From: Arenicellaceae bacterium
GTDB lineage: Bacteria > Pseudomonadota > Gammaproteobacteria > Arenicellales > Arenicellaceae
Direction of reading: 5' to 3'
DNA length: 64,000 nucleotides
Assembly (NCBI GenBank): GCA_029246505.1
Contig: JAQWNC010000011.1
Location: 1 to 64,000, forward strand
The position numbers and the translations under genes are program-made. The notes under the pieces were generated by a model, which saw only the letters and a list, made by a program, of their open reading frames with translations, was not told the DNA's origin and made no database searches. Positions 12,252-25,913 of the stretch are shown one piece after another. Positions within the stretch are counted from its first letter, which is position 1, and each line of letters starts with the position of its first letter.

Positions 12252-12437
12252 GATATTATGATCAGAATTAATATGGCTGAATCGTACAGTGTTTTGACAT
12301 TTAGCTAAACATACACAGGCCATTATCGTGGCTCATTAATCGCATTAGTTCAACGTAATCCACGCATACTGTGTTTATAATCAATCGTTAACATTCTATT
12401 TAGTTTAAAAATCATTTAGACGTAAATATTCGTGAAT

Positions 12438-13793
12438 ATGGACCAAACCGAGCACATTTATCAGGTTTCTGAATTTCTAGCAGAGGCTAAATTTTTGCTC
12501 GAAATGAGTTATCGCTCGGTATGGCTAGAAGGTGAGATTTCCACACTACGTGCTCCTGCTTCAGGGCACCTATATTTCACTTTAAAGGATGATACAACTC
12601 AAATTCGTTGCGCTATGTTTCGCAATCGCGCAGCACGGAATACGATCACGCTTGAAGAAGGACAATTGGTCCAGTTGTGTGCAAAATTTACTATTTACGA
12701 AGCCAGAGGCGACGTTCAACTAATCGTAGAGGAAGTTAAGGAGGCCGGTACCGGCCAGCTCTTGAAGCGATTCGAAGAACTTAAGAAAAAGCTCGCAGCT
12801 GAGGGGCTTTTTTCAGAGCAAAACAAACAGAAAATTCCACGCTTCCCGACCCGCGTAGGTATTGTCACGTCTTCAACTGGGGCCGCCTTGCGCGATATTT
12901 TGACGACATTGAAGCGTCGTAATTCCGGAGTCGCTGTAGTTGTCTACCCTAGCCTAGTGCAAGGTGCAGAAGCACCGACTACCCTGATTCAAGCATTAAA
13001 CGACTGCATTCAACATGATCAATGTGATGTGGTTATTGTTTCTCGCGGAGGGGGTTCGATAGAGGATTTAGCCAGCTTTAACGATGAAAATCTCGCTCGA
13101 CTGATTACAGCTTATCCAATACCCATAATTAGTGCCGTTGGCCATGAGGTTGATTTCACCATCAGTGATTTTGTAGCTGACGTACGAGCAGCTACACCAA
13201 CCGCTGCAGCAGAACTTGTAGCACCGGAACGTATTGCGCTATTAGCTGAACTGGCTGCCCGTGGCATTCGAATGCAGACGATAATAAGCCAAAGTTTACA
13301 AACAAAATCGCAGGCAGTTGATCTATTAAGTAGATCTATCGTTACGCCAGGCCGTAGTTTGAAATTGCGCTTTGATAGTACCCACTTACTTGGCAAGCGC
13401 ATGCATCGAGAGCTACTCAATCGCCTTAAAAGTAGAGCTTCGCAGATGCGCTCAGCGAGGCAAAGTTTTCGTAGATTGCATCCCGAAAAGCAATTGGTAG
13501 ATCAATACCAACGCCTCAAGCAGATGAACCATCTACTGCACACACAGGTTTACGCAAATATTAAAGAACAGCAGCATAAAATTGGTTTAGCCGCTGAGAA
13601 ACTCCGCCTGATAAGCCCATTGGGTGTACTTGAACGTGGTTATGCGTTGGCGCGTTTGGATGCTGCTCCCAAAGCGGTAGTGAAATCGACCCAACAGGTG
13701 CGTGTTGGCGACAAATTAAATATCAGGCTATTCGACGGAGAAGTTTCTACGAAAATTTTAAGCACGGTACCAGGCAACGACCGTGATACTTAA
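12438..13793 (+). CDS. xseA: Exodeoxyribonuclease VII large subunit
   Basis: XseA forms, with XseB, the single-strand nuclease ExoVII that works in repair and recombination. The 451-residue protein has an N-terminal OB-fold (SVWLEGEISTLRAPASGHLY) and the nuclease core with RVGIVTSSTGAALRDIL, VVIVSRGGGSIEDLASFND and SAVGHEVDFTI-DFVADVRA-TPTAAAEL. A coiled-coil C-terminal region ends with PLGVLERGYAL. A GTG two codons upstream (12432) is an alternative start. xseB is not in the window. The downstream LytM gene begins inside its last codons. Confidence 0.97.
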   Translation: MDQTEHIYQVSEFLAEAKFLLEMSYRSVWLEGEISTLRAPASGHLYFTLKDDTTQIRCAMFRNRAARNTITLEEGQLVQLCAKFTIYEARGDVQLIVEEVKEAGTGQLLKRFEELKKKLAAEGLFSEQNKQKIPRFPTRVGIVTSSTGAALRDILTTLKRRNSGVAVVVYPSLVQGAEAPTTLIQALNDCIQHDQCDVVIVSRGGGSIEDLASFNDENLARLITAYPIPIISAVGHEVDFTISDFVADVRAATPTAAAELVAPERIALLAELAARGIRMQTIISQSLQTKSQAVDLLSRSIVTPGRSLKLRFDSTHLLGKRMHRELLNRLKSRASQMRSARQSFRRLHPEKQLVDQYQRLKQMNHLLHTQVYANIKEQQHKIGLAAEKLRLISPLGVLERGYALARLDAAPKAVVKSTQQVRVGDKLNIRLFDGEVSTKILSTVPGNDRDT

Positions 13794-14874
13794 AGCACTG
13801 CTGTTGTTGGTCACACTAGCTCTATGTTCGAGCATGCCGCTAATATCTCAAGAAATAGAAGGAAACCTAACCCCTGGCGGTTTCGCATTGGTACCAGTAT
13901 TTAGCGTTGACAGGCCTAGCATGCGATTTGGATTAAAACCTATCGCGGTATTGGATGATTATGCAGATAGTGGTGTGTGGCTGGGGCTAGTCGGTATCGA
14001 TATTCTCACTGCGCCTGGCCAGTACCTGCTGACCAAAAGCAAACAGGGACATGAAGAGCAAGAAGGCCTGGTAGGTATCACCGTGCAACCAATAGAGCAC
14101 GACTTTCGGCCTAGCAGAACTATTACTACCCGCTTTGAAGAATATTTACGAAACGTGCTAGCTAAAGATAGAGGAGACTATGCTGCTAGAGATATCGTTG
14201 GTGAATGGCACGAAAGTCAGCTTTTCTCATTTCCGTTCCTCCTTCCGCTCGAAGACGGAGAAATGGATGAGGTAACTATCGGGACGTACGTTCAATATCC
14301 AAGTGGTAAGTTAGATCCGGTTAACGCACTATTTCTACGAACCAATAAAGCTAGAACGCGGGTAATCGCGCCCTCCGGTGGGATAATACACAGAGTCGAG
14401 CAATCCAAAGACCGTATGGTGAATACCAACATGATGATCAATCATGGTCAGGGAGTATTTAGCATTCTCAAGGGAGAAATTTATCCTGAAGTCAGCGTTG
14501 GAGACATTGTCGAAGCGGGACAATCCATTGCACTCGTTACCGCAGGGGATCGTCGCATAGATAGGGGCATGCACGATTTATCCTGGCAACTTGTGCTAAA
14601 TGGCGATCTGGTAAATCCGAGTCACTTTTTAGAATTGGACCTAAGTGCCTATTATCAAAAACTAATTACCGATGCAGAAGCTTATTTTTTATCTATCGAA
14701 GCCGCTGAACAACTTAATGCGTTACAAATGTTGGAGGATACAAGCTCCGACCAAGCTGATGCCCCCAACTCTACTATTACCGCCCAGACAGAATCGACAG
14801 ATGATCAGCAATCTACTGGTGATGCCGAGCCGACAAATTATCAAGTTACAAACCCAACAACAGAAACAGAATAG
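13783..14874 (+). CDS. Exported protein with a degenerate LytM (M23) domain
   Basis: A 363-residue protein with a signal peptide (residues 1-~22) and a LytM/M23 fold at residues ~185-290. VIAPSGGIIHRV, MMINHGQGVFSILKGE, VSVGDIVEAGQSIALV and the final strand are all in the expected order. The zinc-binding H---D and H-H pairs are not seen. The usual LHFEI strand is replaced by HDLSWQLVLNG, so it is probably a non-catalytic domain like those of amidase activators. The C-terminal ~60 residues are Asp/Thr/Gln rich and low in complexity. It starts with GTG overlapping xseA by 11 bases, implying coupled translation. The functional link to xseA is unknown. Confidence 0.72.
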   Translation: MILKALLLLVTLALCSSMPLISQEIEGNLTPGGFALVPVFSVDRPSMRFGLKPIAVLDDYADSGVWLGLVGIDILTAPGQYLLTKSKQGHEEQEGLVGITVQPIEHDFRPSRTITTRFEEYLRNVLAKDRGDYAARDIVGEWHESQLFSFPFLLPLEDGEMDEVTIGTYVQYPSGKLDPVNALFLRTNKARTRVIAPSGGIIHRVEQSKDRMVNTNMMINHGQGVFSILKGEIYPEVSVGDIVEAGQSIALVTAGDRRIDRGMHDLSWQLVLNGDLVNPSHFLELDLSAYYQKLITDAEAYFLSIEAAEQLNALQMLEDTSSDQADAPNSTITAQTESTDDQQSTGDAEPTNYQVTNPTTETE

Positions 14875-14926: not shown

Positions 14927-15907
14927 TTAGTCCAGTAATCCTTCGGACCGATACCAATCAACTGTTCGGCGCATACCTTCATCAAGCTCGACCTGCGCCG
15001 CATAGCCCAAAACGCGTTTAGCCTTGGAAATATTAAACGCACGATTGTTTTTAAAGAACTTGATGCGACGCCTATGCAAGGGTGGCTCTATACCGAACGG
15101 TTTGCACACCACTTCACACAACCACCCAGCAAAATACATAGGCCAATAAGGTACCCGTATATACGGTTTCTTTACCCCGAGTGCACGCGCTGCGGTATGA
15201 ATATATTCTTGTAAGCTCAAGTATCTCTCTCCACCAATAAAGAATATTTGACCGTTAAGATCCTTGGTATCAAGGATGCACTGATAGCCCCTCACGAGAT
15301 CATCGATATAGACCGCGTGAAAATACTCCCTACAAGGCCCGATCAGTAAAAAACGTTGATGTTTAATCATTCGAAACATTTTAAGCATACGAAAATCGCC
15401 AGGGCCGTATTGTGAGGTTGGCCTTACGATAACAATCTCCATAGCACCCTCCTCGGCATATTTATGACAGGCCTCTTCAGCCAACAACTTAGTTGACTGA
15501 TACAAATCACCAGGATTTAGCGGCGAATTCTCGTTGGCTGGGGTATGCTTTACGTCGCCATGCACCCCTATCGTTGAAGTGTGGATAAAACGCTTAACGC
15601 CACAGTCCCGAGCCATCTTCAATGCTGACTTGGTACCTGCTTGATTGGTTTTGTAATAACTTTCGTCTGTTCCCTTAACTACACGAAAGTTTGAAACGGT
15701 ATGAATCACCGCATCTACCCGGGTAAAAAGTTTGGTCAACGCCTCATGGTCATTAATATCGCCGACAACAAAATAATCAGGTTCTATCAAACCTATCATT
15801 TTTTGTTCGTCACGCACTAAAGCATGAATAGTATGGCCTGCTAACTGCAACGATTTTGTAAGGCTCGAACCCAAAAATCCAGTCGCACCTGTAATAGCTA
15901 TCTTCAT
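14927..15907 (-). CDS. NAD-dependent epimerase/dehydratase (extended SDR)
   Basis: A 326-residue extended short-chain dehydrogenase. The Rossmann motif is TGATGFLG (residues 6-13) and the catalytic set is S111, Y136 and K140 (YQSTK). A C-terminal substrate domain follows (RVPYWPMYFAGWLCEVVCKP). Such enzymes epimerise, dehydrate or oxidise nucleotide sugars, or reduce ketones in lipid and steroid-like substrates; this sequence does not decide between them. It is the last gene of a six-gene leftward cluster for a glycoconjugate, 88 bases after the methyltransferase. A role in remodelling the sugar or lipid made by that cluster is inferred. Confidence 0.85.
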   Translation of the reverse strand: MKIAITGATGFLGSSLTKSLQLAGHTIHALVRDEQKMIGLIEPDYFVVGDINDHEALTKLFTRVDAVIHTVSNFRVVKGTDESYYKTNQAGTKSALKMARDCGVKRFIHTSTIGVHGDVKHTPANENSPLNPGDLYQSTKLLAEEACHKYAEEGAMEIVIVRPTSQYGPGDFRMLKMFRMIKHQRFLLIGPCREYFHAVYIDDLVRGYQCILDTKDLNGQIFFIGGERYLSLQEYIHTAARALGVKKPYIRVPYWPMYFAGWLCEVVCKPFGIEPPLHRRRIKFFKNNRAFNISKAKRVLGYAAQVELDEGMRRTVDWYRSEGLLD

Positions 15908-15995: not shown

Positions 15996-16847
15996 TTAGG
16001 TAAGCTTGCGAGCCTTTACGATCAGACTATGTCCTTGTGTCCAGAATAGCAATTTATCTAGCTGCGGCAATAGCCATACTATTGGATAAATAAGGCTAAA
16101 AAATTGAAATTTTTTGCGATGTTTATTCAGATCATCACCGCTTACAACATTACCCTTGCTTTTGTCACTGCCGCTTTCATTGCCCTGAGCATGGTCACCA
16201 CCTGACATGCGATCAAGCAACAAGCTAATCAATACATCGTAAAACTCTACAAAGAATTTAGAGTACGTATGGTGCGCAGTTATTTCAAAATACTCGCTAC
16301 AGACAATCATTAAAGACTGTAAATCGTATCCAGGCCTGAGATGACCATGCTTTTCGTCAGTAAGTCCACAAGCCAGTCTTAATTTCCGTATCAACGAGCT
16401 TGGTCGAAAATGCGGCACGTTTATAATCAGGCAAGCATCGGGTTTCATGATTCGATGCAATTCACTAACAAATGCTCGATCATTCTCAATATGCTCAAGA
16501 AAATCTATGATAACAACGGTATCGAACGTCTGCTCTGCATGAGTGGTACGCCCACCGTCAAATAACTCGACCTCAGTTCCAACCATCTGTTTGATGCCAT
16601 CCACAATGGCGGGATCTAAATCAGCGCTGGTCCAATTGCCTCCAGATTCACGCAGCAAATAGCTCAAAACACCATTATCCGCACCAATATCCAAGCATCG
16701 AGAGTTATCGGTGGGTGCTATATAACCGCGTATAGCCGAAAACTTAGCTTTTTTCAGAATGGATTTTTCATACAAACGAAGTAGCATTGATTGGTACTCC
16801 GTAAGCTCGACAGGTACGAGCTTAGAACAAACAATGTCTGCCATCAT
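15996..16847 (-). CDS. Class I SAM-dependent methyltransferase
   Basis: A 283-residue methyltransferase with motif I as CLDIGADNGV (residues 51-60). An acidic residue follows strand 2 (SADLDP), and IIDFLEHI with NVPHF marks the later strands of the Rossmann-like fold. The C-terminal region (residues ~240-275) is hydrophobic and may touch the membrane. A stretch of Gly/Ser/Asp around residues 218-235 looks like a linker. Its start overlaps the acyltransferase stop by four bases (ATGA), so the two are translationally coupled. The acceptor is probably a sugar or lipid intermediate of the cluster, by context only. Confidence 0.82.
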   Translation of the reverse strand: MMADIVCSKLVPVELTEYQSMLLRLYEKSILKKAKFSAIRGYIAPTDNSRCLDIGADNGVLSYLLRESGGNWTSADLDPAIVDGIKQMVGTEVELFDGGRTTHAEQTFDTVVIIDFLEHIENDRAFVSELHRIMKPDACLIINVPHFRPSSLIRKLRLACGLTDEKHGHLRPGYDLQSLMIVCSEYFEITAHHTYSKFFVEFYDVLISLLLDRMSGGDHAQGNESGSDKSKGNVVSGDDLNKHRKKFQFFSLIYPIVWLLPQLDKLLFWTQGHSLIVKARKLT

Positions 16848-17644
16848 AATTCTCGCCGATCCTTTATTTTTTTTGCAGGTATGCCCGCGACTACGGTGTA
16901 ATCGTCGACATCGCGCGTCACTACAGAACCGCTACCCACAATAGAATCTCGGCCGATATTCGTGCCATCCAACACTTGTACTGAAGCCCCTAACCAACTG
17001 TTATTGCTCACATTAATTCCTTTCATAGTTTGCCCTTGATCCATTATAGGTATTTCAATTGAATCGCTTTTATGATCGCCGCCACCGATTAAATAACAGT
17101 AGGCGCCGAACAATACTTTCTCGCCAACACTGACCTTGCTAGCCGATTGAATAAAACATGATTGGGCAATATTACTATTGTCTCCAATCTCAATATCACC
17201 GTCTTTACAGCTCAAAACGGTATTTCTTCCGACTAGCACATTGTTGCCTAGAGTAATGCCGCGATTCGAATCACCCTTGGCATCGAGCACTGCGTAGTCG
17301 TCAACAGCAACATTCTCACCCAGATGAATTTTAGCAGGGTGCCTAATTGTCACGCCGCGTCCAACGATCAACCCACCCCCACATGAACCAAGCAATCGTT
17401 TTAAGTAGAATTTTCGCAATAAGTAACCGATGGCACCCGGCAACGGCATGAAAAATAAGGTATAGAGTTCAAAAGTGAGCAGGCTGATTAGCCCACTTTT
17501 ATCTACATTAATATCCTGATACTTACTTATTGCTGACGTCGAATCATCGGTCAACGCACCCTGCAAGCGTGTGGTACCTGTTGTTTTGTACTCTTTCACC
17601 TGACTAGCCTTTGTGGTCTCATTAGTCGTCTCATGCTTTGTCAT
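16844..17644 (-). CDS. Left-handed beta-helix (hexapeptide) acyltransferase
   Basis: A 266-residue protein. An N-terminal hydrophobic stretch (residues ~50-70) is followed by a long hexapeptide-repeat domain with successive [IV]-G-[ND] coils: IHLGENVAV, ITLGNNVLVG, IEIGDNSNI, VSVGEKVLFGA, INVSNNSWLGA and IVGSGSVVT. The end AGIPAKKI is typical of the maltose/galactoside O-acetyltransferase class. GGGDHKSD may supply a catalytic His. It probably acetylates a sugar on the cluster's product. The methyltransferase gene overlaps its stop codon, and the GT2 gene lies 69 bases upstream. Confidence 0.85.
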   Translation of the reverse strand: MTKHETTNETTKASQVKEYKTTGTTRLQGALTDDSTSAISKYQDINVDKSGLISLLTFELYTLFFMPLPGAIGYLLRKFYLKRLLGSCGGGLIVGRGVTIRHPAKIHLGENVAVDDYAVLDAKGDSNRGITLGNNVLVGRNTVLSCKDGDIEIGDNSNIAQSCFIQSASKVSVGEKVLFGAYCYLIGGGDHKSDSIEIPIMDQGQTMKGINVSNNSWLGASVQVLDGTNIGRDSIVGSGSVVTRDVDDYTVVAGIPAKKIKDRREL

Positions 17645-17713: not shown

Positions 17714-18766
17714 TCACACAAACTTTCTAATAAGCCGCCAATAAATATTTAAAAACTTATTCAGGGCTTTATAACCGGCCATAAGGATTTTATTGTTTAC
17801 GTAATCGGAATAAACAAAGATATCTCCCGCATCCATGACCTGATTGTCGGGTAACTTTCGATAAGATTGAATTTGCTTCCGGACCCGACGGATATCGCTA
17901 AAGTCGCGAAAAAATACTTTCCAGCCAAGGAAGTAATCACTCATGCCTCCTTTCATAACTAAAAAAGCGACCAACGAGCATTCATAGGCGATTAGGGCCG
18001 GGGCGGCTAATAGTATTGTTCGCATTCGATACATTTCCGCTATAAAACGTAAACGATTTTGAACCGCAGCGAGATAGCGTTTAGAGCTCTCAAATCGCTT
18101 ATGAACAACCACTGCCTTAGGAACTTGATAACACTTGTACCCGTAAAGATTCAGTTTATGATTAATTTCACCATCGTCACCCCAGCCTAAAATATAAGCC
18201 TCGTTGAAAAACGACACTTCGGCTGCGCGTTGCTTGTCGATCATTTGCACGCCCCAGCCAATGCTAACTCGTGGTTGATCATCGACCTCGTTGATATTTG
18301 CATCTCGATTAGTATTTGGAGAAGCGCCTACATAATGTAATATTTGACCATCCTGGTAGATACTGGATTCATTATCCCAGTGTACTGCACGAGTAAGACA
18401 CGCAGCTGCGTCTGGATATTCATTAAACACCCGAACCAGTTGCTGCACACAATCTGGCTTTAATTCAACATCATTATCTACAATAAAAACTAGAGGTTGT
18501 AAGGCTTTATTAAACGCAGTATTACGCACTTTATTAAGATTTCCACCACTATTAACCCCTAGCTCGATTACTCGGGTGTTTGCCCAACCATTGTGCACAA
18601 TCTCTACACTGTTATCGGAAGAACCATCATCTACCATCAACACCTCACCGACAGTCTCGTTGAGATTAGCAATAGACTTAAATAAGCCTGGCAACTTATC
18701 TTCGCCGTTATAGTTCATCACCGCGATACTAACGTCGCGGCATTTAAAGTGGCGTTGTGAATTCAT
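17714..18766 (-). CDS. Family 2 glycosyltransferase
   Basis: A 350-residue GT-A fold transferase. VSIAVMNYNG opens the nucleotide-binding domain, VDDGSSDNS follows, and VDNDVEL supplies the D-D metal-binding motif. GWGVQMIDK and GWGDDGEIN (residues ~180-215) fit the rhamnosyl/GT2 group. The C-terminal third carries a hydrophobic segment (AAPALIAYECSLVAFLVMKG) suited to membrane contact. It is the third gene of the leftward cluster, 105 bases after the UPF0104 gene. Donor and acceptor are unknown. Confidence 0.87.
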   Translation of the reverse strand: MNSQRHFKCRDVSIAVMNYNGEDKLPGLFKSIANLNETVGEVLMVDDGSSDNSVEIVHNGWANTRVIELGVNSGGNLNKVRNTAFNKALQPLVFIVDNDVELKPDCVQQLVRVFNEYPDAAACLTRAVHWDNESSIYQDGQILHYVGASPNTNRDANINEVDDQPRVSIGWGVQMIDKQRAAEVSFFNEAYILGWGDDGEINHKLNLYGYKCYQVPKAVVVHKRFESSKRYLAAVQNRLRFIAEMYRMRTILLAAPALIAYECSLVAFLVMKGGMSDYFLGWKVFFRDFSDIRRVRKQIQSYRKLPDNQVMDAGDIFVYSDYVNNKILMAGYKALNKFLNIYWRLIRKFV

Positions 18767-18871: not shown

Positions 18872-19810
18872 CTATTTTCGTGGTGTTTTCAGGTAGGCCA
18901 GCCCACCGGCCACTGATAGCAGTAAATCCGCAAGGGTGATACTCAATCCAAGCGAAAACCCGTCGGTAGAGTCCATTCCAACTAAATTGAAAATCCCAAC
19001 TAAAATCCCTTCCCGCAAGCCTATTCCACCAATCGAAATGGGCAACATAATCAATAACATCGATAATGGTATTACCAACATTAAGAATGTAAATGACACA
19101 TCTATCCCCAGCGCCAACGCCATCAACCAAACAGATATCACTCGAGTCAATTGCAAGCCGCATGAACCAAGAAATGACCAAAATAAAACTAATGGCACAT
19201 GGCTGTAAACTTGCATAGTTTTGCTTACGCGCTTTACAAATAACCCAAGCGGAGCCAAGTTTATACTACTAAATATCCGGTTCAGAATATTGGCCGCACC
19301 GTCGTTTACTGAAACGAATATTAGCAATGCAACTGCAGATGCTCCCAGAAAGAGTATAAGCAGAAAAACCGGGTTTTGTAATTCCGCCGGGCTTTGAAGC
19401 AAGCCGACAAGTGCTACCAGCAACAAAGCAACCAAAGCCAACAACTTATCGCAAAGTACCGATGCGGTGACTTGAGTAGGATTGTCAATATCTCGATTCA
19501 AGTAGTACGCCCGTATAATATCAACACCCAGACTGGATGGTAAAAAAGTACCCCACAATTTGCCTACCAGAGCATTTGCCAGTAGTTGCAAAAAACTGAC
19601 GCCACGATTAAACACATGAATCAGTAATAGCCATTTCCAGGTAAACACCAAGCGTTCAAGAACTAATGTGGCCAAGTGCAGGCTCAACCATAGCCCAGAT
19701 GCGGCAAACAAGGTGTCTTGGACCAGCAACCAATCTACCTGACTCAAGGCGAGCCCAAATATCAAAAAGCTGAACAGCAACTTGAGTAAATAATTAGCCG
19801 AAATTTTCAT
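18872..19810 (-). CDS. UPF0104 / lysylphosphatidylglycerol-synthase-type membrane protein
   Basis: A 312-residue integral membrane protein with about eight hydrophobic segments, similar to the flippase-like membrane domain of lysylphosphatidylglycerol synthases without the catalytic domain. A conserved LGVDI-RAYYLN--I stretch and the ISIGGIGLREG element near the end support the family. The start at 19810 shares its A with the TGA of the upstream fusion gene, a TGATG coupling; a GTG or ATG at 19831 is less likely. In similar clusters such proteins are suspected of lipid or glycolipid translocation. That role is family-based inference. Confidence 0.82.
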   Translation of the reverse strand: MKISANYLLKLLFSFLIFGLALSQVDWLLVQDTLFAASGLWLSLHLATLVLERLVFTWKWLLLIHVFNRGVSFLQLLANALVGKLWGTFLPSSLGVDIIRAYYLNRDIDNPTQVTASVLCDKLLALVALLLVALVGLLQSPAELQNPVFLLILFLGASAVALLIFVSVNDGAANILNRIFSSINLAPLGLFVKRVSKTMQVYSHVPLVLFWSFLGSCGLQLTRVISVWLMALALGIDVSFTFLMLVIPLSMLLIMLPISIGGIGLREGILVGIFNLVGMDSTDGFSLGLSITLADLLLSVAGGLAYLKTPRK

Positions 19811-22620
19811 CACTCGACCCTTCGAAACCAATCGTAAACTTCAGAAATTTGCATCTTTCTCGAGGCATCATCCCAGGAATGATTTTGTACCAAATAATCC
19901 ATCAGACTTTCTACGCTATACCGATCCGGCAAACGTGCAGCGCCAATATCCGTCCTGCGAATAACTAGATCGGATAAATTTTTGACTAATTCATTCGCAA
20001 GTACAAAATCGATTTCTGCCAGTGATACAAGGGTGTTTGGAATACATTGTGACTTGTCTGGAGAAGAAAACTGCTGCTCTAATATTGTCCTAGCACCTGA
20101 ACCGTAGCGGCCAATTAATCTATCTATACTGTCAGTATCCACGGCCTGCCCAAAAAGTTTTAGCAGTTCGTCACGGAATTGTTCCACAACACCCATAGAT
20201 GAAACCCCAAAATCGCTCCCGTAGCGCATAGCTGACGATGCCCTTGGGCCTTCGGGTTTGTCCTTAATCTTATCTAGAACCTGCTCTGCAATATTCTCGG
20301 CGGTCGTATACTTTACCGCCGCAATCTTAAAATAGCCGGGAGCGGCAGATGAAGCATCAATTATTGAGTGACTCAGTAGTCGTCGATCAGGATCGCCTTT
20401 CCCAGAACGAGCCGGCAATAATCCAATCTCAATATGTGCCAAAGCGTCCTCTAGTAACTCAGGCTGATTGTTGCTCGATAAATCATTTATACACGTCATT
20501 AACTCACGTTCAGAAAGCAATAACGGTAACTGACCGCCTTGATGTTCAAAATACCAAGTACCTGCAACCAAACGGTTTTGCCAAGGACAAATAAATAGTT
20601 TGCGTCGTTTATCGACAGAGTCTATCCCCCAAGCTGCTGCGTGCTGTGGCGGCGTGTTAAAAACAAGATTGACGCCCTTAACCCAATCTATATTAGTTTT
20701 ACGCTCTAACAAATCGCTCGGTAGACTTGGTAAATTTAATTCGGTTCCCGTTGCATCTATGAACCAATTGCAGTGAATTGACCACGCTTGTTGATTAATT
20801 TGATCAACTACATCGACGACAAATTTATGGCTACTTATTCTTTGAACATCAATAACATTCTGATAATTAACACAATTCGCACCAAGTTCTTGCGCACTCA
20901 ACACCTGGGCTAGAACACCACGTTCAGGATACTGAATTTGTGCCTCTTGCCAAAAAGCCACAATCCCACTTAGCCCACCAGGCGCTTCCTCACTCGATAC
21001 TACAGCCGTACCATATTTTCTTAATTTATCTGTCGAATTCCACGGCGAAACAAGTCCAATACGAATAATTACGTGATAAAACCATAAACCGAGACGGTAT
21101 ATTGGTCCAGATCTCAATATTCCGGGTCCAGACGCTATAAAAAACTCGAGTGGTTTTAATAGATAAGGATAGTGCTTTATCCATTCATTCTGACTTTGCG
21201 CAGACATCCGAGAACGAAATATATCACCGGTTTGTAAGTATCTCAGCCCGCCATGAATAGTCCGTAAATTATTCGCTGATGCCTCTCCACCAAAATCGTC
21301 CTTTTCTACCAAAGTTACCGAATAGCCCTGGCTAGCTGCACGTAAAGCAATACTTGCCCCGGTTATTCCACCCCCGGCGATTACCAACTGGCTAGATAAC
21401 GTTGAACTTAAGCCCTCTACGTTGTGAGACATTCCAAGTACGTCGCCTACGGCCTCATACAAATCGCCAACCGCCTTTTTAAAACTAATCTGACTGTGCG
21501 ACTGCTTCGCGTATTTATGACCTGCTGCTCCTAACTGGAGACGCTGTTGCTTGTCTTCCAGCATCGCCAACATAGCATCACCAAAACTAGCAGCATTCGC
21601 ATCAGCAAGCTTCGAGTTTTCGTCGTTTAATACTTGAGTATGTGTTGGTAATCGAGTTGCTACAGTGACCACGCCCGCATAAAGATAGGAGTAGATTTTC
21701 ATCGGCGTATTTGTGCCCTGTGAACGCGCCGAAACTAAGATATCCGCCTGACATAGGAAGTCTGCTAAATGCTCGACCGGTCGCGTACCGGCGAACCGAA
21801 CGCGTGAGCTAATCCCTAAGGATTCCACCACCTTTGTATATCTAGCGATATGGGTACGACTCCCCCCCACTATAACCAGAGTCGCACTTTCATTACGATT
21901 AAACGTGTGCTGAGAAGCCTCTAACAGCAAGTCTATGCCTTGATAGCCCTCTAAGTTCCCTACGTACAAGATCATTTCACCGGTAACTTTTAAAGTGTTT
22001 CGCAAATCTTCTATAGGCGCGCCAGATATATCGTCGAATAAGGCCACATCCTTTACCAGATGAATCCCGTGGCTGCGATGTGCGCGTGCAAAATGAGCAA
22101 TATCTTCACACATAGGTGCCACAACACAGGCTTCACGTACCACCCTAGATTCTAACCAGCGCATAGCGCCTTTTAGAGGGGTTAACCACGGTAAAGCAGC
22201 GCACACCTGATCTGACAATAGTGAGTCCATATCGTATATGTATGGTGTGCCAAATCGCTTCTTAAGCAACCACGCGATAAACCCTGCTTCCTCTACTGCG
22301 TGGACCAGATCATAATTGCCGCTGAAAATTTGTCTCCACGCTGCGAACAGCATATGCACATCTAGCCACACCTTAGCCAACGAGAAACCAGGCCCAATTG
22401 GGCGCTTCGAGCCTGGAATCAGACTATCTTGATAGTTGGCTGGAGAATCGGGAAGCCGCTGTATCGTCAGGCCCGCATAATCTCTGTGTTGCCCACCAAG
22501 AAATGTGAGTAAGTGAACTTGATGGGCTCGTACGCTCAACTCTTTGAGTAGTAAATCAATTGCGATTGGCGTACCACGCTCTATATAAAACGGCTGCGGA
22601 GCGAGGAAAAGAATTTTCAC
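19810..22620 (-). CDS. Fusion of a GT4 glycosyltransferase and a GlpD-like FAD oxidoreductase
   Basis: A single 936-residue frame. Residues 1-~395 form a GT-B family 4 glycosyltransferase: APQPFYIERGTPIA at the N-terminus, VHAVEEAGFIAWLL, LYVGNLEGYQGIDLLLEA, and a donor-site region around TPMKIYSYLYAG. Residues ~408-936 resemble glycerol-3-phosphate dehydrogenase GlpD. The FAD motif is VIAGGGITGASIA (residues ~413-425), then TIHGGLRYLQTGD, a DAO barrel, and a C-terminal GlpD helical domain (GRYGSGA, then LVIRRTDIG). An internal ATG at residue 397 has no convincing ribosome-binding site, so one polypeptide is likely. No frameshift or stop separates the halves. It leads the leftward cluster and is coupled to the UPF0104 gene. 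Confidence 0.88.
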   Translation of the reverse strand: MKILFLAPQPFYIERGTPIAIDLLLKELSVRAHQVHLLTFLGGQHRDYAGLTIQRLPDSPANYQDSLIPGSKRPIGPGFSLAKVWLDVHMLFAAWRQIFSGNYDLVHAVEEAGFIAWLLKKRFGTPYIYDMDSLLSDQVCAALPWLTPLKGAMRWLESRVVREACVVAPMCEDIAHFARAHRSHGIHLVKDVALFDDISGAPIEDLRNTLKVTGEMILYVGNLEGYQGIDLLLEASQHTFNRNESATLVIVGGSRTHIARYTKVVESLGISSRVRFAGTRPVEHLADFLCQADILVSARSQGTNTPMKIYSYLYAGVVTVATRLPTHTQVLNDENSKLADANAASFGDAMLAMLEDKQQRLQLGAAGHKYAKQSHSQISFKKAVGDLYEAVGDVLGMSHNVEGLSSTLSSQLVIAGGGITGASIALRAASQGYSVTLVEKDDFGGEASANNLRTIHGGLRYLQTGDIFRSRMSAQSQNEWIKHYPYLLKPLEFFIASGPGILRSGPIYRLGLWFYHVIIRIGLVSPWNSTDKLRKYGTAVVSSEEAPGGLSGIVAFWQEAQIQYPERGVLAQVLSAQELGANCVNYQNVIDVQRISSHKFVVDVVDQINQQAWSIHCNWFIDATGTELNLPSLPSDLLERKTNIDWVKGVNLVFNTPPQHAAAWGIDSVDKRRKLFICPWQNRLVAGTWYFEHQGGQLPLLLSERELMTCINDLSSNNQPELLEDALAHIEIGLLPARSGKGDPDRRLLSHSIIDASSAAPGYFKIAAVKYTTAENIAEQVLDKIKDKPEGPRASSAMRYGSDFGVSSMGVVEQFRDELLKLFGQAVDTDSIDRLIGRYGSGARTILEQQFSSPDKSQCIPNTLVSLAEIDFVLANELVKNLSDLVIRRTDIGAARLPDRYSVESLMDYLVQNHSWDDASRKMQISEVYDWFRRVE

Positions 22621-22748: not shown

Positions 22749-23282
22749 ATGGCATCGCCCATTGCGCACTCCCTAGCCGGCATTAATATTCTTGCGTTAT
22801 GTTTTCCCGATCGATTAAAATATTTACCCATGTTGCTTCTATCGATGTTTGTTGCCACCCTACCTGATTTCGATTTAATAGTATCAGGCATAACGCACCG
22901 AACAATTATGCACTCAATTACTTTCTCCGTTGCTATTTCGATGAGTCTTTTTATTTGGCTCAAGATAAAAGCCAGTCCATTATATCTCGTGATTCCGAGC
23001 TTATTTTTTTTTGGAATAGTAAGCCACATAATTATTGACTGGTTTAGCCTGGATTTAAGTGAACCAGCAGGTTTAGTCATAGGATGGCCATGGAATATGG
23101 AATATCAAATTAGCGATCACACTATATTCTTAAACCTGCATAGAAATGATTTTTTTGAGCCAACGATCATTACCCACAACGCTAAAGCATTGCTGCAAGA
23201 AAGTATCATAATGTTACCCGTAACGCTGCTTATCTTGTTTTGCCGGCGCTCGTATTTTCATACGGGTTTTCGCTGTTCTTAA
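22749..23282 (+). CDS. YdjM/DUF457-type inner-membrane protein
   Basis: A 177-residue protein with four to five hydrophobic segments. It begins MASPIAHSLAGIN, the hallmark of the YdjM family of predicted membrane-bound metal-dependent hydrolases. Conserved polar positions include H7, the LPDFDLI motif, HRTIMHS and SHIIIDWFS, which together look like a His/Asp metal site within the membrane. Its function is not established. It diverges from the GT4-GlpD gene with about 128 bases between. Its end overlaps the end of der by 53 bases on opposite strands. Confidence 0.75.
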   Translation: MASPIAHSLAGINILALCFPDRLKYLPMLLLSMFVATLPDFDLIVSGITHRTIMHSITFSVAISMSLFIWLKIKASPLYLVIPSLFFFGIVSHIIIDWFSLDLSEPAGLVIGWPWNMEYQISDHTIFLNLHRNDFFEPTIITHNAKALLQESIIMLPVTLLILFCRRSYFHTGFRCS

Positions 23283-24609
23283 AACTTAGCCGCACTCGGG
23301 TGCCAACCATATGGTAAGCATCCTCTATACAACTGGCGATATACCGCTTATAGGTTTTCGGTAGCTTGTCTAACTGATTTCCATGCAATACTACGTGTGG
23401 TGGATTTTTGCCACCCTGATGCCCGTACTTAATTTTAATTCGACGAATACCAACCATGGGAGGCTCTTGTCGTTCTGCGGCAGCCGCTAGTACGCGATTT
23501 AATCGGCCTGTGCCTAAATCAGTAAGTGCGGAATCGTATATCTTTCTTACCATCGGTAAAATCTTCCCAACGCCGGTACCGTGCAATGCGGAGATCGGCA
23601 ACTCTTCAAAGTTCCCTGAGTATCTAAACTTTTGGTCGAACATGTTTCGCAGGCGCTTTTTCTCGTAATTGCTAAGATTGTCCCACTTGTTTAGCAATAA
23701 AAGCGTGGAGCGACCGCGTTCTAATATCAAACTAAGCAACCGAAGGTCTTGTTCAAATATTCCGGCTTGAGCGTCCATGACCATTAACACAACATGCGCA
23801 TTTTCAATCGCTTGTACTGTTTTAATTACTGAAAAATGCTCCAGTCGGTCATCAATACGCCTTTTTTTACGCATACCGGCAGTATCAATAAGCACGTACT
23901 GTTCCCCTTCAGATTCGAACGGTACGTAAATACTGTCTCTGGTCGTTCCCGGCGAATCGTACACAACAACTCTGTCTTCGCCTGTGAGCCGATTTATCAA
24001 GGTTGATTTACCAACATTTGGACGCCCAACTACCGCTACCCTTGGAACATCAGAAGGCAAATTAAAGTCGGTATGCGCTTCCACCGTCTCAAGCGCCATA
24101 TCCATTAACCGTCGAACCCCATCGCCATTCTTTGACGATACCGGATACGGTTCACCCAAACCCAATTCGAAAAAATCGCTACGCACTACATCCTTATCTA
24201 ATCCTTCAGCCTTATTTAACAAAAGATATACTGGCACGCGATCTTCGCGACGTAACTGATCTGCAATCTCTCTATCAGTTGTTGACAAACCCTCTCGGCC
24301 ATCAACAATGAATAGAACTGCATCGCTCTCTTCTATTGCATAATCTACCTGACGACGCATCAAGTCGTGTATTTCAGTTCCCTCGACTTCAATGCCACCT
24401 GTATCAACTATCCAGTAAGGTCGTGAGCCAATTCGCCCTTCCCCTATCATACGATCTCGCGTTACACCTGGTTGATCATCTACGATCGCATCGCGGCTTC
24501 GAGTTAAACGGTTGTACAGTGTTGATTTACCGACGTTCGGACGGCCAACAATCGTTATTACTGGCCGATTCAGAGTTTCTTCCGTGTCCAATTCTTTCTT
24601 CATAGCCAC
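23230..24609 (-). CDS. der: Ribosome biogenesis GTPase Der
   Basis: Der (EngA) is an essential GTPase for 50S subunit maturation. The 459-residue protein has two G domains in tandem, each with a P-loop GRPNVGKST: first in VGRPNVGKSTLYNRL at residue ~22, second in VGRPNVGKSTLINRL at residue ~198. DTGG and DTAGM are the G3 motifs, NKAE and NKWD the G4 motifs. A KH-like C-terminal domain follows with KIKYGHQGG and a basic tail. It is the last gene of the rodZ-hisS-yfgM-bamB-der series, 143 bases after bamB. Confidence 0.97.
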   Translation of the reverse strand: MAMKKELDTEETLNRPVITIVGRPNVGKSTLYNRLTRSRDAIVDDQPGVTRDRMIGEGRIGSRPYWIVDTGGIEVEGTEIHDLMRRQVDYAIEESDAVLFIVDGREGLSTTDREIADQLRREDRVPVYLLLNKAEGLDKDVVRSDFFELGLGEPYPVSSKNGDGVRRLMDMALETVEAHTDFNLPSDVPRVAVVGRPNVGKSTLINRLTGEDRVVVYDSPGTTRDSIYVPFESEGEQYVLIDTAGMRKKRRIDDRLEHFSVIKTVQAIENAHVVLMVMDAQAGIFEQDLRLLSLILERGRSTLLLLNKWDNLSNYEKKRLRNMFDQKFRYSGNFEELPISALHGTGVGKILPMVRKIYDSALTDLGTGRLNRVLAAAAERQEPPMVGIRRIKIKYGHQGGKNPPHVVLHGNQLDKLPKTYKRYIASCIEDAYHMVGTRVRLSFKNSENPYENTSAGKTR

Positions 24610-24752
24610 GTAATGATAGTCGTTTGGTCAAGGTCAAACTCTAACCAGACTAGACCTCCAGCGCAAAGTTACCTTTTAGATGCAAAAGCGTGTTGCGTGC
24701 GGTGCGGTACAACTTGATGAAACTGGTAGGATCCATTAAGGATGTCTTTGTA

Positions 24753-25913
24753 TCAGCGTCGCGCTGCAGAAATAGAGCTTAGTTCACCGCTAGTGTTCAG
24801 CAAATATGCCTTATCTAATCGAATCAGTGGTTGTGACACCAATCCTTCGCCACCGATCTCATAATCGCCTAAAAATTCACCATCGCGCTTATCTAAAACA
24901 TAGACGATACCGTCAAAATCGGAAAGAATTATATAGGGGCCTAGAGAAGCCGGAGCGCTTAATTCCCTATAGAGCAATTTATCATTAGTCCAGACATTTT
25001 TGCCGGTCAATAAATTAAGTGCTACAACCCGACTATCACGATCCACTGCGTATAAATACTGCATGTCGATGGCAAAAGGATGATGAGTAGCAACCTCTGA
25101 AGTCCATAAAACTGCTCGCTCTTCTAGATTCAGCGCAATAATCGCACCTTGATATGATGCTGAGAACAATGTTCCGCGTACCAAGCTTGTGCGAGCATCA
25201 ACGTCTACTAATCTCTCTAATTCATTTCGGCCCCGGGGATAAGCGACAGGTATCTCCCATAATACTCGTCCTCCTTCTAGCTCTGCAGCCAGTAATTTGC
25301 CGTTTGGAAACCCAACAATTACCACACCTCTTTCAAGTAACGGTTCTGCATCGCCTAGTAGTGAAAGGCTAGGTACTTGTCGAACGATACTCCAGACCTC
25401 GACCCCATTTTCCACATTCAGCCCAGACAGTCGACCATCTGCAGTCCGCACAACTACACGACCGTCAGTTGCCATCGGGGGCGCTGTAACCACACTGCTA
25501 ACGGCAACCTTCCAACGCGTATCACCTGATGTTGCATCCAAGGCATACACATTGCCTTCATAGGTACCGACAAATATCAAACCAATACCCGCGCCTACGC
25601 CACCAGAAATCGACTCCCTTAAATTTACGGCCCAAGCTTTTCTTCCAGTCTCAGCATTTACAGCAACAACATGCCCCTCGGGCGATGCAGCGTAAACATT
25701 TTCACCCGCTAATCGAGGTGTTAGTCCTACATGAGAGCTGTCAAAACCAGCGCCTAAACCAACTGACCAATTCCTTACGATTGATTGGGTCTTTTCAAAC
25801 TTTGGCCGTTCAGCAGGTTCCAACTCTGGTATTAACGACTCTTTTGTTGAATTGCAGCCATCTAAAAACAATACTCCCATTACGATCGCTATTGATAGGT
25901 GTTTTATCTTCAT
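24753..25913 (-). CDS. bamB: Outer-membrane assembly lipoprotein BamB
   Basis: BamB is an eight-bladed PQQ-like propeller that aids BamA in inserting outer-membrane proteins. The lipobox LDGC at residues 17-20 follows a hydrophobic signal, giving a lipid-anchored N-terminus. Propeller repeats such as NAETGRKAWAVNLRE, DATSGDTRWKV, ENGVEVWS and LEERAVLWTSEV recur through 386 residues, a normal length. It starts 6 bases after yfgM, clearly one operon. Confidence 0.95.
   Translation of the reverse strand: MKIKHLSIAIVMGVLFLDGCNSTKESLIPELEPAERPKFEKTQSIVRNWSVGLGAGFDSSHVGLTPRLAGENVYAASPEGHVVAVNAETGRKAWAVNLRESISGGVGAGIGLIFVGTYEGNVYALDATSGDTRWKVAVSSVVTAPPMATDGRVVVRTADGRLSGLNVENGVEVWSIVRQVPSLSLLGDAEPLLERGVVIVGFPNGKLLAAELEGGRVLWEIPVAYPRGRNELERLVDVDARTSLVRGTLFSASYQGAIIALNLEERAVLWTSEVATHHPFAIDMQYLYAVDRDSRVVALNLLTGKNVWTNDKLLYRELSAPASLGPYIILSDFDGIVYVLDKRDGEFLGDYEIGGEGLVSQPLIRLDKAYLLNTSGELSSISAARR

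Follow-up and report, generated by a model that had tools for sequence, protein, structure and literature searches.

A single reading frame in the DNA analysed here (the window, 64,000 nucleotides from an Arenicellaceae bacterium) joins a GT4 glycosyltransferase (GT) to a GlpD-like FAD oxidoreductase. The same fusion is found over its full length, with 68% identity, in a second species of the genus (G001). Because other bacteria usually encode both enzymes by separate, neighbouring genes in surface-sugar clusters, the fusion suggests a step of cell-surface glycan synthesis that is as yet uncharacterised. The product is, on balance, probably a bifunctional enzyme of surface-glycan synthesis, with a flavin half that oxidises a hydroxyl other than that of glycerol-3-phosphate, on the glycan or on its acceptor.

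The fused ORF (19810..22620, minus strand) starts with a GTG at 22620 and encodes 936 aa in 936 codons; the plus-strand reading of this interval is full of stops. It comprises, all on the minus strand, the GT4 half (residues 1-395, 21436..22620; supported by Pfam and AlphaFold2), a linker (residues 396-409, 21394..21435) and the GlpD-like FAD half (residues 410-936, 19813..21393; supported by Pfam and by its predicted fold). The linker is poorly conserved and includes neither a stop nor a conserved internal start codon. In the GT half, Glyco_trans_4_4 (residues 22-181) and both Glyco_trans_1_4 and Glycos_transf_1 (residues 210-369) exceed their Pfam gathering cut-offs. The FAD half carries an FAD-binding DAO domain (residues 412-692, 20545..21387; 89 bits, cut-off 27.9) and a DAO_C domain (residues 814-920, 19861..20181; 40 bits, cut-off 31.4). 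In the alignment, the conserved Met1 of separate GT relatives coincides with the GTG start. The first-pass annotation, which did not state the strand, had described one 936-residue frame linking a sugar transferase (residues 1-~395) to a GlpD-like flavoprotein complete with C-terminal domain; Pfam bears this out.

The FAD half has the predicted GlpD fold. Modelled from an alignment of 46 relatives (pLDDT 88.7, pTM 0.92), it superposes on Escherichia coli GlpD structures with TM-scores of 0.77-0.86. With GlpD (PDB 2qcu, 2r4e; 3da1) and the type 1 glycerol-3-phosphate oxidase GlpO (2rgh), it shares the whole fold including the C-terminal domain, the FAD motif, the HGGLRY motif and Lys354. Unlike them, it lies outside the canonical GlpD clade and far under the NCBIfam GlpD equivalog cut-offs (NF008899, 130 bits against 360; NF009906, 120 against 352), has R317 and the GGK triplet replaced, and belongs to a family whose members are joined to a GT4 or have a GT4 gene next to their own in a glycan cluster. 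Residues were compared by aligning 68 cluster proteins with 12 canonical GlpDs of the same order. R317 and R332, which we take to be substrate-binding residues of E. coli GlpD, are Arg in 12/12 canonical proteins. At the R317 position, 54 cluster proteins have Leu and 8 have Val (62/68), and the window protein has Leu; R332 is retained in 23/68, where the alignment is gappy, and is His in the window protein. GGK, found in 12/12 canonical GlpDs, is xVK, xIK or xTK in most cluster proteins. The FAD-binding glycines, H50, R54, K354 and T356 are kept in nearly all 68. In the tree, canonical GlpDs lie on one side of a branch with support 100/99. The cluster family is not necessarily monophyletic, since two of its FAD proteins (L046, L047), each with a separate GT neighbour, adjoin the canonical group. 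Judged by its sequence, the FAD half is not a GlpD despite the intact predicted fold, because it scores below the GlpD cut-offs, canonical GlpDs form a separate clade and R317 is replaced. The first-pass annotation had left two alternatives: oxidation of a glycerol-phosphate-like or other polyol group linked to glycosylation of the same product, or recruitment of the flavoprotein to a new sugar or lipid substrate. The second is favoured over glycerol-phosphate oxidation because R317 and GGK are lost across the family, the flavin site is kept and some genomes also carry a canonical GlpD.

These comparisons weigh on the possibility that the flavoprotein half functions as a glycerol-3-phosphate dehydrogenase, which would feed DHAP and electrons or modify a glycerol-phosphate substituent, the fusion being a mere convenience. 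GlpD and GlpO are its closest solved relatives, R54 and K354 are kept, its DAO_C domain is in the only DAO_C protein found in the genome, and a glycan-borne glycerol-phosphate group could still be the substrate. However, 130 bits against a cut-off of 360 and the loss of R317 and GGK argue against this activity, as does the presence, in several genomes (e.g. G024, G034, G045, G058), of a canonical GlpD separate from the cluster-type protein. The only glycerol-kinase match in the host genome (G000:C17:95352-95777, L159; E 2.5e-43 over 142 positions) is fragmentary and interrupted by six stop codons, and is likely a decayed gene. Together with the lack of another DAO_C protein in that genome, it is consistent with lost glycerol use. 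A glycerol-3-phosphate dehydrogenase is therefore considered unlikely.

About equally unlikely is a flavoprotein half without catalysis, acting as scaffold or regulatory partner of the glycosyltransferase. Its substrate-site residues are altered, a long branch (1.92) leads to the fused lineage in the FAD tree, and in every pair compared the FAD half has diverged faster than the GT half. Between the window protein and G001, the FAD halves are about 64-65% identical (dN 0.26-0.28) and the GT halves 74% (dN 0.18), dS being saturated for both. Against a loss of catalysis stand strong purifying selection, the full fold predicted with high confidence, and the conservation of the FAD-binding glycines and of H50, R54, K354 and T356 noted above. 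An oxidising flavin half is the preferred reading.

The GT half keeps the GT-B fold of its family (AlphaFold2 pLDDT mostly above 90). The halves were modelled apart because aligning fused, GT-only and FAD-only proteins together misplaced the FAD-only rows onto the GT half; in the full-length model, confidence is high for the GT half alone, since the FAD half had two aligned rows. MshA (3c48), PimA and PglA share the GT-B fold and the Pfam Glycos_transf_1 family with it, and the PEP-CTERM/XrtA glycosyltransferase model TIGR04063 matches it weakly. The usual GT4 motif consists of E-x7-E and a diphosphate-binding Arg/Lys pair, and not every GT4 member keeps it. Unlike MshA and its kin, the GT half has Asn222/Gln227 in place of the Arg/Lys pair (alignment to MshA) and Ser311 in place of the second Glu; these substitutions are invariant in the family alignment (A4). 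R299 and N304-K308 are invariant in the family in place of the usual catalytic residues. Given these substitutions, sugar transfer by this half is an assumption.

The linker bears on whether one protein or two are made. Cleavage of the joined protein, or an additional internal start for the FAD half, would give two proteins acting separately, and the window protein has an in-frame ATG at residue 396-397. This ATG is not conserved in G001 and, by eye, no ribosome-binding site precedes it at proper spacing, which makes such an outcome quite improbable. No stop or frameshift interrupts residues 390-410, a region flagged by the first-pass annotation (~395-410) as the place where one might be found, and the linker (~20 residues) aligns without gaps to that of G001, with only 24% identity. 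An artefact of assembly or frameshift, joining two genes that are indeed separate ORFs elsewhere, is close to refuted by the same in-frame fusion at 68% identity in G001, its ungapped linker, and the lack of a conserved internal start codon. Assembly error is excluded because this second fusion combines the ungapped linker with saturated synonymous sites and low non-synonymous change. The GT4-GlpD-like fusion is thus real and not due to chance.

At E below 1e-60, neither 109 genomes from the order nor 369 genomes sampled from the class yielded a further fusion; with this threshold and the few candidates scored per genome, very divergent fusions could be missed. Within the genomes searched, the architecture proposed for a wider search by the first-pass annotation is confined to one genus, G001 being the only other carrier. 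A literature search restricted to open-licence texts retrieved no paper on this architecture or cluster. The simplest history would be a single fusion event within this genus, joining two genes that are adjacent and often overlap.

In other families of the order, the GT and FAD genes are separate and adjacent. The whole fused protein used as a direct query against genome_contigs gave no match; an alignment of GT halves was needed and retrieved 80 loci, a few of which are contigs of the genomes of the order already examined. The FAD neighbour was not selected for, since the query contained the GT half only. A FAD-family gene is present in 52/80 loci, of which 46 have it on the same strand and no more than 1.2 kb away; it is missing from 28, some of them on short contigs. 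Loci with both genes span 12 named phyla, including Cyanobacteriota, Chloroflexota, Nitrospirota, Thermodesulfobacteriota, Verrucomicrobiota and Pseudomonadota, and many pairs of separate genes overlap by a few bases. The side-by-side split orthologues that the first-pass annotation suggested looking for are therefore common, and their occurrence in many phyla supports its proposed link between oxidation and glycosylation.

In the window, the fused ORF is followed on the same strand (minus) by genes encoding a flippase-like membrane protein (LPG_synthase_TM; 18872..19831), whose frame overlaps the end of the fused gene, a GT2 glycosyltransferase (17714..18766), a hexapeptide-repeat acyltransferase (16844..17644), a SAM-dependent methyltransferase (15996..16847) and an HpnA-like NAD-dependent epimerase/dehydratase (14927..15907; 163 bits, below the TIGR03466 HpnA cut-off of 367.65). 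The GT2 gene is a conserved neighbour; the acyltransferase and methyltransferase were assigned by domain matches and recur in the loci of relatives. The same neighbours are found in other phyla, with a second methyltransferase family. Some clusters of relatives also include an asparagine-synthase-like amidotransferase and a GMC oxidoreductase. From the functions of these families, the neighbourhood would correspond to a pathway that makes a surface glycan or glycolipid. The cluster site, between bamB-der and M23-xseA genes (window 12432-14874 and 23230-25913), is also found in other families of the order.

The divergent neighbour of the fused ORF (22749..23282, plus strand) encodes a YdjM-family membrane protein, identified by a domain match. 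A YdjM gene also adjoins the FAD gene in 8 cyanobacterial loci (e.g. L056:8982-9521, L065:8953-9495), and because of these two associations the protein may be part of the pathway. A large membrane protein with weak YfhO similarity is encoded directly before the GT in several relatives (L034:6058-8511, L033:6877-9765). A family of ~270 residues (cluster 5, alignment A5), with D-x-H-x-H and GTDPLP motifs and no Pfam match in the members scanned, is found beside the GT and FAD pair at L042:4256-5071, L077:4967-5818 and 24 other loci. Within the set of 80 genome_contigs loci, every locus that has it also has a FAD gene, and in some loci it is apparently fused to a methyltransferase. Its D-x-H-x-H motif suggests a resemblance to metal-dependent hydrolases. 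No match to this family was found in the genome of the window organism.

Exopolysaccharide-type clusters with the flippase-like LPG_synthase_TM, for example on plasmids of Leisingera and other roseobacters, likewise include GT4, FAD oxidoreductase, epimerase, methyltransferase, acyltransferase and flippase-like genes; they differ in that the FAD oxidoreductase is a separate gene or is missing from the part read. One Leisingera plasmid has its GT, FAD, epimerase and methyltransferase genes surrounded by sugar-nucleotide genes and by O-antigen ligase, sulfotransferase and sugar transferase genes. On the Leisingera biofilm plasmid NZ_CP038235.1 (70338-71833, L137), the FAD oxidoreductase is annotated as two overlapping pieces, possibly through a frameshift or mis-annotation.

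The reaction that we infer for the fused enzyme, with its substrate, order of steps and electron acceptor, would be as follows. The enzyme would act in the biosynthesis of a surface glycan (exopolysaccharide or glycolipid). Its N-terminal GT-B (GT4) half would add a sugar onto a membrane-associated acceptor, and its C-terminal GlpD-fold half would carry out the FAD-dependent oxidation of a hydroxyl on the same glycan, on the acceptor or on an attached polyol. Free glycerol-3-phosphate would not be the substrate of the flavin half, from which electrons would pass to the membrane, as in GlpD. The fusion would keep the glycosylation and oxidation steps on one chain.

As a Rosetta stone, the fusion suggests that two genes recurrently adjacent across distant phyla act on one product. 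The best-scoring curated models of the FAD family are glycerol-3-phosphate dehydrogenases, yet this family very likely has another activity. More tentatively, the pair of GT4 and GlpD-like proteins, which occurs in 12 or more phyla and is fused in a single genus, could lie at the centre of a glycan pathway that is so far undescribed. In such a pathway, a membrane flavoprotein would oxidise a glycan or lipid-linked hydroxyl rather than glycerol-3-phosphate and would couple surface-glycan modification to the respiratory chain. The clusters of the family seem to build a surface glycan.
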